Part shown: piece by piece, positions 6,702 to 56,006 of the stretch
How the letters are laid out: each line of letters begins with the position of its first letter
Numbering within the stretch: position 1 is the stretch's first letter
NCBI RefSeq assembly: GCF_014252055.1
Contig: NZ_CP059208.1
Location: 124,001 to 188,000, forward strand
Length of the DNA stretch: 64,000 nt
Reading direction: 5' to 3'
Source: Blattabacterium cuenoti
Lineage (GTDB): Bacteria > Bacteroidota > Bacteroidia > Flavobacteriales > Blattabacteriaceae
Made by a program: the position numbers and the translations under genes
Notes under the pieces: model-generated
What the model saw: only the letters and a program-made list of their open reading frames with translations
Databases searched by the model: none
What the model was told of the DNA's origin: nothing

Positions 6702-7277
6702 ATGGAATGGATTAATTCATTAATTAGTTGTTTTATGATACTTTTTAGTATTATAGATATATTGGGAAATGCTCCTATAATTATGGGATTTAAATCCAAA
6801 GGAAATATTATAGAGACTAAAAAAGTTGTAGTAACTTCTCTTATTATATTTTTATCTTTTCTATTTTTAGGACAACCTATGTTAAAAATTATAGGAGTAG
6901 ATGTTCACTCTTTTTCTGTAGCTGGATCTATTGTATTATTTTTAATTGGTTTAGAAATGATATTAGGAATTGATTTACACCAAGTAAAAGAAAATGCACA
7001 GACTTCTATTGTACCAATAGCTTTTCCACTTATAGCTGGTCCTGGATCATTAACTACTTTAATTTCATTGAGAACAACTTATGACGTCAATATCATACTT
7101 TTATCTCTAATACTCAATATGATTGTAGTTTATTTTGTTATAGATAGATGTGATTTTATAGCTGAAAAAATAGGAAATAATGGATTAGATATCCTAAAAA
7201 AAATATTTGGAATTGTTTTATTAGCTTTTGCAGTTAAAATTTTTGGAGCTAATGCTGGCCAATTATTTCAACAGTGA
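6702..7277 (+). CDS. MarC family integral membrane protein
   Basis: This 191-residue hydrophobic protein belongs to the MarC (UPF0056) family, inner-membrane proteins of unknown function. About six membrane segments are visible, with the family motifs LGNAPI near residue 22 and the central IAGPGSLTTL near residue 110. Despite the name, MarC has not been shown to confer antibiotic resistance, so no transport role is claimed. The 163-bp gap upstream holds the pyrEF terminator and nothing else that I recognise. The 3' end overlaps the convergent rnpA remnant by 29 bp. Confidence 0.9.
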   Translation: MEWINSLISCFMILFSIIDILGNAPIIMGFKSKGNIIETKKVVVTSLIIFLSFLFLGQPMLKIIGVDVHSFSVAGSIVLFLIGLEMILGIDLHQVKENAQTSIVPIAFPLIAGPGSLTTLISLRTTYDVNIILLSLILNMIVVYFVIDRCDFIAEKIGNNGLDILKKIFGIVLLAFAVKIFGANAGQLFQQ

Positions 7278-7615
7278 TTTTACGAAAGATTTCCTTTGTA
7301 GATTGATCTATTTCTTTAAAAGATGGTAAGTGATGAGCTTTATAAATAAGAATAATGTAAATTTTTTTGTTTATAATAAATTTATTCTTTGAAAAAGAAG
7401 ATCGTAATAATCTTTTGATTCTATTTCTGGAGACAGCTTTCTTAAAATTTTTTTTTTACTAAAGTTCCGATTAAAACTGGATATTTTTTATTATTTTCCT
7501 CTTTTATAAGGTTTTTTGGTGAAAAAATCACAGATAAAATAGGAAAAATAAAAATATATTTTCCATTTTTAATTATCTCTTCAAAAATTTTCTTTTTTTT
7601 TAATTTTATTTTCAT
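7249..7615 (-). pseudogene. rnpA: Ribonuclease P protein component, frameshifted in a 10-A run
   Basis: RnpA is the protein cofactor of the tRNA 5'-processing ribozyme RNase P. Reading from the ATG at 7615, the frame gives a plausible RnpA N-terminus (MKIKLKKKKIFEEIIKNG) and then stops at 7442, just after the A10 run (T at 7448-7457 on the plus strand). Dropping one A gives a continuous product of about 121 residues that runs into the signature KKAVSRNRIKRLLR and ends at a TAG at 7249-7251. Length and signature both fit RnpA. It is either a sequencing or assembly indel, a true pseudogene, or a gene rescued by transcriptional slippage on the A-run. The gene is normally essential, so the last option or an indel is more likely than loss. 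Confidence 0.85.
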
Positions 7616-7636: not shown

Positions 7637-8638
7637 TTATTTATAATTAGCAATAAATTCCTCAAATTTTGAAACCATTTCTACAGACCCGCAAACAAAT
7701 GGAGTTCTCTGATGTAATTTAATAGGTTTTATATCTAAAATTCTATTTTCTCCATCAGATGCTTTTCCACCTGCTTGTTCTGTCAAAAAAGCTATAGGAT
7801 TACATTCATAAAGTAATCTCAATTTTCCATTTGGAGATGAATCAGTTTTAGGATAAATATATATTCCGCCTTTTATCATATTTCTATGAAAGTCCCCTAC
7901 TAAAGATCCTATATATCGCGCTGTATAAGGGCGATTTTCTTTTTTTTCTTGACAATACCTTATAAATTTTTTAATCTCACTAGAAAAATTAGCATAATTA
8001 CCATGATTAATAGAATATATACTTCCTACTTTAGGAAAGTGTAGATTTGGATGAGATAAATAAAATGTTCCTACTGAAGGATCTAAAGTAAATCCATGAA
8101 CCCCCTTCCCTATAGTAAATACTAATATAGTAGAAGATCCATAAATAATATATCCAGCCAAAATTTGTTTTTTCCCTTTCTGTAAAAAATCACTTATCGT
8201 TAAATCCATTTTAACAGAAGATTTTCTTAAATAAACAGAAAATATAGTACCTATAGAAACATTCACATCTATATTAGAAGATCCATCTAGTGGATCTATT
8301 AATACAATATATTGATTTTGATAAAAATTTTCTTTTTTTTCTTTTATTACTATGAAATCCTCACTTTCTTCAGAAGCAATTCCACAAACAACATTTCTAC
8401 TTTTAAAAGATTCAATAAATGCTTTATGAGCAAAATTATCTAATTTTTGTTGATTCTCTCCTTGGATATTAGTTATTCCAGAACTTCCTATTAATTCTTC
8501 TGTTAATCCAACTTTATTAACTTCCTTATGTATTGCTTTAGAAGCTAATTTTATGGAACTAAATAAACGTAATAAAGACTCTATAGAATATAAAAAATTA
8601 TCTCTATTTTTTATAATAAATTCTCCTAATGTATACAT
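7637..8638 (-). CDS. fbp: Fructose-1,6-bisphosphatase, class 1
   Basis: Fbp hydrolyses fructose-1,6-bisphosphate to fructose-6-phosphate, the committed step of gluconeogenesis. The 333 residues include the metal-binding IASEESED and the signature DPLDGSSNID of class 1 enzymes. The C-terminal CGSVEMV segment is also typical. I chose the ATG at 8638 (MYTLGEF); an upstream ATG at 8653 would add five hydrophobic residues. FbaA, the preceding enzyme in gluconeogenesis, is encoded at 46296-47366, so both are kept in this genome. Confidence 0.95.
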   Translation of the reverse strand: MYTLGEFIIKNRDNFLYSIESLLRLFSSIKLASKAIHKEVNKVGLTEELIGSSGITNIQGENQQKLDNFAHKAFIESFKSRNVVCGIASEESEDFIVIKEKKENFYQNQYIVLIDPLDGSSNIDVNVSIGTIFSVYLRKSSVKMDLTISDFLQKGKKQILAGYIIYGSSTILVFTIGKGVHGFTLDPSVGTFYLSHPNLHFPKVGSIYSINHGNYANFSSEIKKFIRYCQEKKENRPYTARYIGSLVGDFHRNMIKGGIYIYPKTDSSPNGKLRLLYECNPIAFLTEQAGGKASDGENRILDIKPIKLHQRTPFVCGSVEMVSKFEEFIANYK

Positions 8639-8752
8639 AATTATAAATATCAATCTTTTTAAGATAACTTTTTCAAGTGTATCTATTATTAGTATAGATA
8701 GTAGAATAAAATAAATAAACTTTATAATTTTATTATTTTAATTTTATTTTCA

Positions 8753-53025: not shown

Positions 53026-53583
53026 ATGGTAAGTAACTCTTCTTCTGAAAAAGTGCAAATTAAACTTAAAAATTTTAAGTTATTAGAAATTTATTCAGGA
53101 AAAAAAAAATTTATGAAAGAATTTTTTTCCGATAAAGCAACTGTTATTATGTTTATTTGTAATCATTGTCCATACGTAAAACATATTAACAATGAATTAG
53201 TTCGTTTAACAAAAGAATATCTATTAAAAGGAGTTTCATTTTTAGCTATTAATTCTAATAATGTAGAAAAATATCCGGAAGATTCTCCAAAAAATATGAA
53301 AAAAACATATGATAAATTAGGCTATGTTTTTCCTTATTTTTTTGATGAAACACAAGAAGTAGCAAAATATTATAAAGCAGAATGTACTCCAGAATTTTTT
53401 ATTTTTTCTGGGAAAGGAGACTTATATTATCATGGACAACTAGATGATTCTAGACCTGGAAATAAAATTCCCGTTACAGGAAAAGATATAAGTAATATTT
53501 TAAAAAGAATTCTAAATGGAGATTCTTTTAAAGAAATACCTATTGTAAAAGTAAGTAGTGGGTGTAATATTAAATGGAAGTAA
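53026..53583 (+). CDS. Thioredoxin-fold (AhpC/TSA redoxin-like) protein
   Basis: This 185-residue cytoplasmic protein has a thioredoxin fold and a redox motif CNHC (Cys45, Cys48) followed by PYV. Other family marks are AINSNNVEKYPEDSP, YFFDETQEVAKYY, the cis-proline region CTPEFFIF and the end SSGCNIKWK. The family is annotated as thioredoxin/redoxin-like; the partner is not known. It follows the coiled-coil gene by 7 bp, likely in the same operon. The last 14 bp overlap nrnA on the opposite strand. Confidence 0.85.
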   Translation: MVSNSSSEKVQIKLKNFKLLEIYSGKKKFMKEFFSDKATVIMFICNHCPYVKHINNELVRLTKEYLLKGVSFLAINSNNVEKYPEDSPKNMKKTYDKLGYVFPYFFDETQEVAKYYKAECTPEFFIFSGKGDLYYHGQLDDSRPGNKIPVTGKDISNILKRILNGDSFKEIPIVKVSSGCNIKWK

Positions 53584-54577
53584 TAAGACTACTATAATAA
53601 TCTGGAATTATACTCAAAAAATATTTAATGGATTCTGATAGACTTTTTTCTGATATTCCTCCTGCTGCATTTTTATGTCCACCACCTTTAAAATGTTTTC
53701 TAGCAAATAAACTAACATCAAAATTTCCTTTAGATCTAAAGGAAATTTTGATCGGTTCTTTTATTTTTTCTTCAAAAAAGAAAACAGAAAATATTATATT
53801 TTCAATACCTAATCCATAATAAATAACCCCTTCAGTATCTTCTTTTTTACAAGAAAGAATATTAAGATCCGAAGCATCTATACTTGTATATGTAGTATGA
53901 TATTTTTTTAAAACTCTTAGTCTATTTAAAGCCTTAGATAATAATTTTAATCTATTTTCATTATATTTTTCTTGTAATAGATTATATATATTACTTACAT
54001 GAATACCTTTTTCTATTAATTTACCAGCAATAAAATGAGTTTCTGAAGTTATAGATGGAAAACGAAAAAAACCTGTATCAGTCATTAACCCTACATATAA
54101 ACATGTAGCAATTTCTTTATCTATTTTATTCAAGTTATTCATATTAGATATAAATCTGAATACCAATATGCTAGTAGCTGATACTTTTGGATCTGAAAAC
54201 ATAAAATCAAAATAAGATGGATGAGGATGATGATCGATAAGAACTTTTTTAGCTCTTGAAGAAACTAAAAAATTTCTTAAATTCTTTATTCTTGAAATAT
54301 TGTTAAAATCTATTAAAAATATATAATCGGAATTTTCAATTTTTTTTCTTATTAAAAATTTATTTTTTTCTGAGAAAACGATAATATCTTTGATTCCTGG
54401 TAGCCATTGAAAAGATTTTGAGTATTCTGTAGAAGATATTAAATCTACATTATGTTGAAGTTTTCTTAAATAAAATAATAGTGCTAAAGATGAGCCTAAA
54501 GCATCTCCATCTGGATGATCATGTGGTAATAGTACTATTTTTTTTTTATTTATTCCATTAATATTAGAAAATAACAT
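53570..54577 (-). CDS. nrnA: DHH-family phosphoesterase, NrnA-like (nano-RNase / pAp phosphatase)
   Basis: NrnA-type enzymes degrade very short RNAs and 3'-phosphoadenosine phosphate using manganese. The 335 residues have PHDHPDGDALGS (18-29), LIDFNN (near 90), the DHH motif DHHPHPS (near 116) and the DHHA1 domain motif GGGHKNAAGG near 300. The early codons include a 10-A run (54538-54547) in frame. It lies downstream of cca, 7 bp apart, in the minus-strand group dapD-tsaC-cca-nrnA. Confidence 0.9.
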   Translation of the reverse strand: MLFSNINGINKKKIVLLPHDHPDGDALGSSLALLFYLRKLQHNVDLISSTEYSKSFQWLPGIKDIIVFSEKNKFLIRKKIENSDYIFLIDFNNISRIKNLRNFLVSSRAKKVLIDHHPHPSYFDFMFSDPKVSATSILVFRFISNMNNLNKIDKEIATCLYVGLMTDTGFFRFPSITSETHFIAGKLIEKGIHVSNIYNLLQEKYNENRLKLLSKALNRLRVLKKYHTTYTSIDASDLNILSCKKEDTEGVIYYGLGIENIIFSVFFFEEKIKEPIKISFRSKGNFDVSLFARKHFKGGGHKNAAGGISEKSLSESIKYFLSIIPDYYSSLITSI

Positions 54578-54584
54578 ATTATAT

Positions 54585-56006
54585 TCATTGTTTTTTTTTA
54601 AATCCTAATTCTTCTCCTTTTTTTAACATAAGAAGATATGCAGAATTAAATTCATTGGGAATTTTCCCTTCTAAAATGGAATCTTTAATAAAATTTTTTA
54701 TAATTCCTATTTTTTTGCACGGATGAACATTAAAAACATTCATAATATCATTTCCAGATATAGGAGATTTCCAATTTTTAATACGATCTCTTTCTTCTAA
54801 TTTCTTTATTCTATCCATTAGAACAAAAATATTTCTTTTATAACGATCTTTTTTTTCTTTATTTTTTGTAGTGATGTCTGCTATACACAATTTTATTAGA
54901 TCTTCTATATCTTCTCTCATATCAAATAATAATCTACGAATAGCAGAATCACTGGTTTCATCTTTAATCAAAGCAACAGGCCTATAACTATTTTTAATCA
55001 TTTTTTTGACATATTTCATAATCATTCCTTTTGGAAGCTTTAATCGTTGAAAAATGTTTGGAATCATTTTCGATCCTACAAATTCATGAGAATGAAATGT
55101 CCATCCTATTTCTGGAACAAATTTTTTTGTATGACTTTTTCCTATATCATGAAGTAATGCAGCCCATCTCAACCAAATAGAATTACTTTTTTCTTTGCTT
55201 ATATTATCTATAACTTGTAAAGTATGGTCAAAATTATCTTTATGTTTGTATCCATTTAGTTCTTCTATTCCTTGTAATGATGTTAATTCTGGTAATATTA
55301 TGGATAATAATCCTGATTTATATAATAATGATAGGCCTATAGAAGGTTTTTTAGATAATAGAATTTTATTAAATTCATCTATAATTCTTTCTTTAGAAAC
55401 AATATTAATTCTATTTTTATTTTTTTTAATAGATTTAAATGATGACTTTTCTATCATGAACTGAAGTTCAGTAGAAAATCGTATAGCACGCATCATTCTT
55501 AATGGATCATCAGAATAAGTGATATCTGAATCTAAAGTAGTTCTTAATATTTTTTTTTTCAAGTCTAACATCCCCCCAAATGGATCTATTAATTCTCCAT
55601 AATTATCATTATTTAAACTAATAGCTAAAGAATTAATCGTGAAATCTCTTCTTTTTTGATCCTCTTGTAAGGATCCTAATTCTATAATAGGTTTTCTACT
55701 ATAAAAATGATATGATTCTCTTCTTGCTCCAACAAACTCTATTTTTTGATTATTATATTCTAACATAGCAGTTCCAAAACGTTTAAATACCTGAATTTTA
55801 GGAATAGGAATAATATATCTAGAAACTTCTTTAGCTAATCTAATTCCTTCTCCTATAGTTAAAATATCTAGATCTCTAGAATTTTTTTTACCTAGCAAAA
55901 AATCTCTTACATAACCACCTATAACATAGGATTCTTGTTTTATTTTATTAGAACAAATGTTAACAATATGAAATATTTTACTATGAAGAGCCGATGACAA
56001 ATTCAT
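54585..56006 (-). CDS. cca: CCA-adding tRNA nucleotidyltransferase with HD domain
   Basis: Cca adds or repairs the 3' CCA of tRNAs, needed here because the tRNA-Leu gene does not encode CCA. The 473 residues begin with the class II nucleotidyltransferase core (GGYVRDFLLG 30-39, RDLDI 44-48) and the basic motif DPLRMMRAIRFS. An HD phosphohydrolase-like domain (LLHDIGKSHT near 287) follows. A related poly(A) polymerase cannot be excluded by motifs alone, but the HD form fits tRNA processing. A 10-A run (55550-55559) is in frame. Confidence 0.91.
   Translation of the reverse strand: MNLSSALHSKIFHIVNICSNKIKQESYVIGGYVRDFLLGKKNSRDLDILTIGEGIRLAKEVSRYIIPIPKIQVFKRFGTAMLEYNNQKIEFVGARRESYHFYSRKPIIELGSLQEDQKRRDFTINSLAISLNNDNYGELIDPFGGMLDLKKKILRTTLDSDITYSDDPLRMMRAIRFSTELQFMIEKSSFKSIKKNKNRINIVSKERIIDEFNKILLSKKPSIGLSLLYKSGLLSIILPELTSLQGIEELNGYKHKDNFDHTLQVIDNISKEKSNSIWLRWAALLHDIGKSHTKKFVPEIGWTFHSHEFVGSKMIPNIFQRLKLPKGMIMKYVKKMIKNSYRPVALIKDETSDSAIRRLLFDMREDIEDLIKLCIADITTKNKEKKDRYKRNIFVLMDRIKKLEERDRIKNWKSPISGNDIMNVFNVHPCKKIGIIKNFIKDSILEGKIPNEFNSAYLLMLKKGEELGFKKKQ

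Follow-up and report, generated by a model that had tools for sequence, protein, structure and literature searches.

Can a bacterial gene whose two halves lie in different reading frames still supply its protein, and by which route? The question is raised by rnpA, the gene of the RNase P protein, in a stretch of 64,000 nucleotides of DNA of the cockroach symbiont Blattabacterium (hereafter the window). The symbiont genome has 622,023 bp and a single copy of rnpA; the gene order of the window is common to all 49 genomes of the genus, and the named records of these loci are Blattabacterium cuenoti. As a preliminary description of this DNA stated, the frame of the ATG at 7615 stops directly behind exactly ten A's (7448-7457), and a run of nine would give an rnpA of about 121 residues ending at 7249; indeed, removing one base from the run joins both halves into 121 residues. 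The N half translates as MKIKLKKKK...LIGTLVKKKF up to the stop at 7442, and the C-half frame opens only inside the A-run (about 7455), with no ATG, GTG or TTG ahead of the signature KKAVSRNRIKRLLR in the window. The features are listed in Table 1.

Table 1. Positions in the window of the two rnpA halves, the A-run, the upstream neighbor and two control genes
Feature	Position	Strand	Remarks
rnpA N-terminal half	7442..7615	(-)	57 codons; ATG at 7615; TAA stop directly behind the A-run
A10 run, proposed slippage site	7448..7457	(-)	context GGAACTTTAGT-A10-TTTTAAG
rnpA C-terminal half, other frame	7249..7455	(-)	signature KKAVSRNRIKRLLR at 7443-7402; stop 7249-7251
Fructose-1,6-bisphosphatase (FBPase) gene	7637..8653	(-)	directly upstream of rnpA; synteny anchor
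DHH phosphoesterase gene	53570-54577		control gene
Poly(A) polymerase/CCA-adding gene (pcnB)	54585-56006	(-)	control gene; intact in the window

In many bacteria rnpA sits beside rpmH. Here the FBPase stop lies 21 bases ahead of the rnpA ATG, and the order FBPase-rnpA is kept in 49/49 genomes; the expression of rnpA may be coupled to that of FBPase. The rnpA start overlaps the FBPase stop in many of these genomes.

Family searches revealed that the C half matches Ribonuclease_P (PF00825) with 39.5 bits against a gathering score of 22.3. No other PF00825 match exists in the whole genome; a second intact rnpA, which the preliminary description had named as a finding that would overturn its reading, is absent. 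Taken by itself, the N half matches nothing in Pfam; it aligns with in-frame orthologs that share the segment IxNGKY...LIGTLV. One such in-frame ortholog covers positions 6-107 of the 109 in PF00825, and its alignment with B. subtilis 1a6f includes both halves, albeit as a weak match (E 0.004). The locus thereby presents what identifies an RnpA, namely a PF00825 match above the gathering score with the RNR signature, and the N-terminal half upstream of it.

An alignment of orthologs, which the preliminary description had proposed as a check, was carried out by extracting rnpA from all 49 Blattabacterium genomes and scoring the frame class at the A-run. In 39 of the 49 genomes the gene lacks a continuous open frame, always at this run: 18 belong to the +1 class, 20 to the -1 class, and one (G042) has an in-frame stop. 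The remaining ten are in frame at the run; three of them, G002, G006 and G015, which are separate lineages on the tree, have no long run, and the other seven carry 9 to 13 A's. In total, a run of that length is retained in 46/49 genomes. It measures at least nine in all 39 broken genomes, and none of the three run-less genomes is out of frame (hypergeometric p 0.0065). Among the genomes with the run, 7 are in frame versus 18 and 20 out (chi-square p 0.04); these counts treat the lineages as nearly independent, which is supported by the absent phylogenetic signal described below. The damage is otherwise confined: 38 of the 39 broken genomes are broken only once, at the run of at least nine A's, with open frames elsewhere, G042 needing more than one event, and all 49 genomes have the RNR motif and a C frame without interruption. 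In several genomes the class is set by fixed changes outside the run, such as T5 or T6 behind it. With host names assigned indirectly (PMC6039017), the Mastotermes (G043) and Nauphoeta (G046) genomes are +1, that of Blaberus (G044) is -1, that of Blatta (G045) is in frame, and that of Cryptocercus (G041) is in frame at the run with a shifted tail. Both G041 and G035, in frame at an A12 run, show apparent frameshifts near the 3' end, where the RnpA tail is unlike that of their sisters. The extra base is therefore real, and to see in it a single surplus base of a single gene was too narrow a view, as it represents a genus-wide state in which the frame is free in both directions.

A tree of the 49 genomes, built from the FBPase, MarC-like and PyrEF genes (30 of its 46 inner branches starred), requires at least 24 changes of frame class, compared to a mean of 22.8 for shuffled labels (95% range 19-26). 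The frame class carries no phylogenetic signal, the 24 changes being indistinguishable from shuffled labels, and sister genomes differ in the pairs G019/G046, G033/G021, G016/G017, G045/G020, G041/G001 and G006/G014. Among 30 same-order outgroup loci checked, the 20 that could be parsed by motif scan are all in frame with A-runs of at most 8, and so is rnpA of G064, a 345-kb genome of the same family. Blattabacterium is thus marked by both a long run and a lost frame. Judging from the aligned residues, the lengthening of the run arose by a codon change to lysine, from VSKKNFKKAV to VKKKNFKKSV. No account of the genus-wide pattern was found in the full-text literature, a coverage that mostly leaves out subscription papers.

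An A10 run is error-prone for some read types. As an explanation for the genus, an error of sequencing or assembly is practically negligible: the same site is broken in 39/49 genomes, including published ones of differing years and methods, the shifts go in both directions, and the classes are also set by flanking substitutions. Moreover, in six genomes the region of the window, about 60 kb or one tenth of the genome, contains 70 other gene groups with 103 in-frame runs of at least ten A's, against one gene broken, pcnB of G027. We followed two control genes with similar conserved A-runs, mostly A10-A11, through the 49 genomes, pcnB and the DHH phosphoesterase gene. Only 2/98 cases are broken; the consensus is in frame in 47/49 genomes for pcnB and in 48-49/49 for the DHH gene, whose frame is broken in none and which has a stop codon in one genome. 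Neither sequencing error nor a general tolerance of run indels, therefore, explains the 39/49 in rnpA.

Some details of these control genes deserve a record of their own. In G027 (G027:C1:183799-185210) the break in pcnB lies at an A11 run close to the 3' end, and in G046 (G046:C1:458696-460107) it lies close to codon 150, at the place of a conserved A10-A11 run; it is possible that pcnB is another RNA-processing gene with slippage rescue. The one TAA in the DHH gene occurs only in G029 (G029:C1:157415-158392). An rnpA run of at least nine is kept in 4/5 relatives, and only 3/33 of the other fully scored runs are kept in at least 4. Such conservation is no clear-cut evidence that the run itself is selected, since most genomes retain the runs of the two control genes too.

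If the breaks are real, rnpA might be a pseudogene, with RNase P relying on its RNA without the protein, or being less active, a suggestion made for strain Bge (PMC2768785). Consistent with that, the RNase P RNA gene is intact in the genome of the window (191 bits), and bacterial RNase P RNA is cited as active alone in vitro (PMC2768785). The selection analysis points the other way. Under the MGK codon model, the N half had an omega of 0.35 and the C half one of 0.27 in the 38 frame-shifted genomes, and omega=1 was rejected for both (2dlnL about 121 and 213, respectively). Likewise, 16 sister pairs of out-of-frame genomes gave a pN/pS of 0.61 (CI 0.50-0.75) for the N half and 0.44 (CI 0.37-0.52) for the C half. 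The faster evolution of rnpA relative to FBPase, with an omega of 0.09 in the same genomes, is compatible with decay; RnpA is under weaker constraint than FBPase, yet clearly constrained. Purifying selection thus acts on both halves in genomes where the frame is broken, the RNR motif and the open C frame persist in every genome, no other stops or indels have accumulated in 38/39 broken genomes, and the run-less lineages are all in frame. Relaxed constraint together with further disabling changes, by which a pseudogene would be recognized, was not observed, and we hold this explanation to be improbable.

The suggestion for strain Bge has its origin in the 2009 genome, where no pseudogene other than the RNase P protein gene was reported; its stop at codon 53 was explained as a possible A-T point mutation, and an RNA-only RNase P was suggested (PMC2768785). 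The G042 chromosome has 636,850 bp, equal to published Bge (PMC2768785), and its rnpA carries that stop, although the strain match is indirect. In the genus comparison, the TAA of Bge is the stop found behind the A-run in many relatives. In G042, five A's replace the relatives' six just behind the run, so that the halves share a frame with the TAA between them. One slip cannot rescue this gene, as its downstream half lies in the upstream frame behind the TAA. Either the gene has recently suffered true damage, or the 2009 sequence contains an error here. In the light of the other genomes, the published pseudogene view of rnpA in strain Bge is unlikely.

We also considered whether the two halves are separate proteins. 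An ATG, GTG or TTG for the N half lies 44-55 codons upstream of the GTLV motif end, near the FBPase stop, in 49/49 genomes. By contrast, a start codon ahead of the RNR signature occurs in only 1/39 broken genomes and is absent in the other 38, indicating that the C half is not ordinarily made by itself. A split gene of two proteins was rejected on this ground.

Altogether, it is very probable that the cell repairs the frame as rnpA is copied or read, and that the DNA frame is no longer protected by evolution. From the comparison of genomes, we propose with a probability of about 0.7 that rnpA is a functional single-copy gene whose DNA frame would be nearly irrelevant to fitness, owing to rescue by RNA polymerase slippage and a low need for RnpA. 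In this mechanism, the polymerase would slip on the 9 to 13 A's and produce mRNAs with A's gained or lost, some of which would always connect the N half with the RNR half, which binds RNA, whatever the frame in the DNA. The joint would accept one lysine more or less, and several run lengths could give a working protein. If the cell can do with part of its normal RnpA dose, run indels would be nearly neutral and the frame would random-walk between species, whereas lineages that lost the run must be in frame, and are.

Two features expected of slippage rescue are present at this locus, a single break at an A-run of at least nine and purifying selection on a frameshifted gene. In bacteria, slippage occurs efficiently on 9 A's or T's (PMC5009743), and in frameshifted genes of aphid and ant endosymbionts it corrects the frame in 12-50% of transcripts (PMC5009743; also PMC3017870). 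Slippage on at least nine A's makes both insertions and deletions, and hence any frame can be served. The control genes with similarly long runs stay in frame, and slippage alone is therefore insufficient, so that low dosage must be added; we infer transcription as the step of rescue, and a low dose need as the reason why rnpA, unlike other genes, tolerates shifts. Counting against slippage, a transcriptome-wide survey of Buchnera found a restored frame in no case (PMC5574713). Insertions are also reported to prevail in homopolymer slippage (PMC5574713), and because of this the rescue may be weak in +1-class genomes with A10, which need one A deleted or two added. Of the three options left by the preliminary description, slippage is well supported by the genome comparison, a sequencing indel fails as a general cause, and decay conflicts with the purifying selection on both halves.

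The main rival to polymerase slippage places the frame change at the ribosome, which would slide or shift on AAA codons in both directions and reach the C-half frame. Ribosome sliding on homopolymeric A in lysine codons is known in E. coli (PMC4363877), the -1 move needed in about half of the genomes is compatible with A_AAA_AAA, and sliding could act together with polymerase slippage. However, 18 genomes need the opposite direction, whereas programmed sites keep one, and neither a conserved 3' structure nor a fixed zero-frame heptamer was found. Past the run, the RNA is no more stably folded than shuffled sequence (mean z 0.15 over 49 genomes; z = 0.97 in G000, the handle of one of them). Stimulatory 3' structures at programmed frameshifts are frequent, not obligatory. 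With 18 +1 and 20 -1 genomes, the direction is not fixed, and together with the missing downstream stimulatory structure this led us to reject a programmed ribosomal frameshift. Ribosome sliding at large we regard as a minority prospect, though a serious one. A further rival locates the variation in the DNA itself: chromosome copies within a cell or host would differ in run length, and the in-frame copies would supply the protein. Long A-runs mutate fast, and assemblies give only a consensus, the commonest length. Nevertheless, the control genes with similarly long runs have an in-frame consensus (see above), and the class of several genomes is due to fixed changes outside the run, as noted above, which makes mixed DNA quite improbable.

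Returning to polymerase slippage, a bolder version of it may be put forward tentatively, and we consider it rather doubtful: the reading frame of an essential gene would have become selectively neutral genus-wide, as a long-lived, memoryless frame-shuffling site served by the polymerase, possibly even favouring out-of-frame DNA to keep RnpA low, for which the small share of in-frame genomes among those with the run would speak. In any case, about 24 frame changes in one gene provide a natural experiment on the dose need for RnpA and on the efficiency of slippage rescue. The selection on rnpA argues against the published suggestion of a protein-free RNase P for Blattabacterium, and annotation pipelines may label the gene a pseudogene in most of the genus although selection indicates function.

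Poly(A) frameshifts rescued by transcriptional slippage have been described for cell-wall genes of Buchnera and a his gene of Blochmannia (Tamas et al. 2008, Wernegreen et al. 2010, as related in PMC5009743 and PMC3017870). The rnpA gene resembles these cases in having at least nine A's at the break, an otherwise intact gene, purifying selection and persistence across species. It differs in that their frameshift is kept in some species, whereas rnpA, which codes for the RNase P protein, flips both ways at one site in most of the genus without phylogenetic signal. Similarly, nine T's in Thermus thermophilus dnaX cause slippage, so that the mRNAs are mixed and the products vary in length (PMC5009743); there the DNA frame is intact and slippage adds a shorter product, whereas rnpA would need slippage for its full product. 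Strain Bge represents the same gene broken at the same place, with a differing explanation, a point mutation (PMC2768785). Finally, programmed frameshifting such as that at A_AAA_AAG of E. coli dnaX shares with rnpA an A-rich slippery stretch and a C half that needs a frame change, but rnpA has neither a fixed direction nor a 3' stimulator structure.
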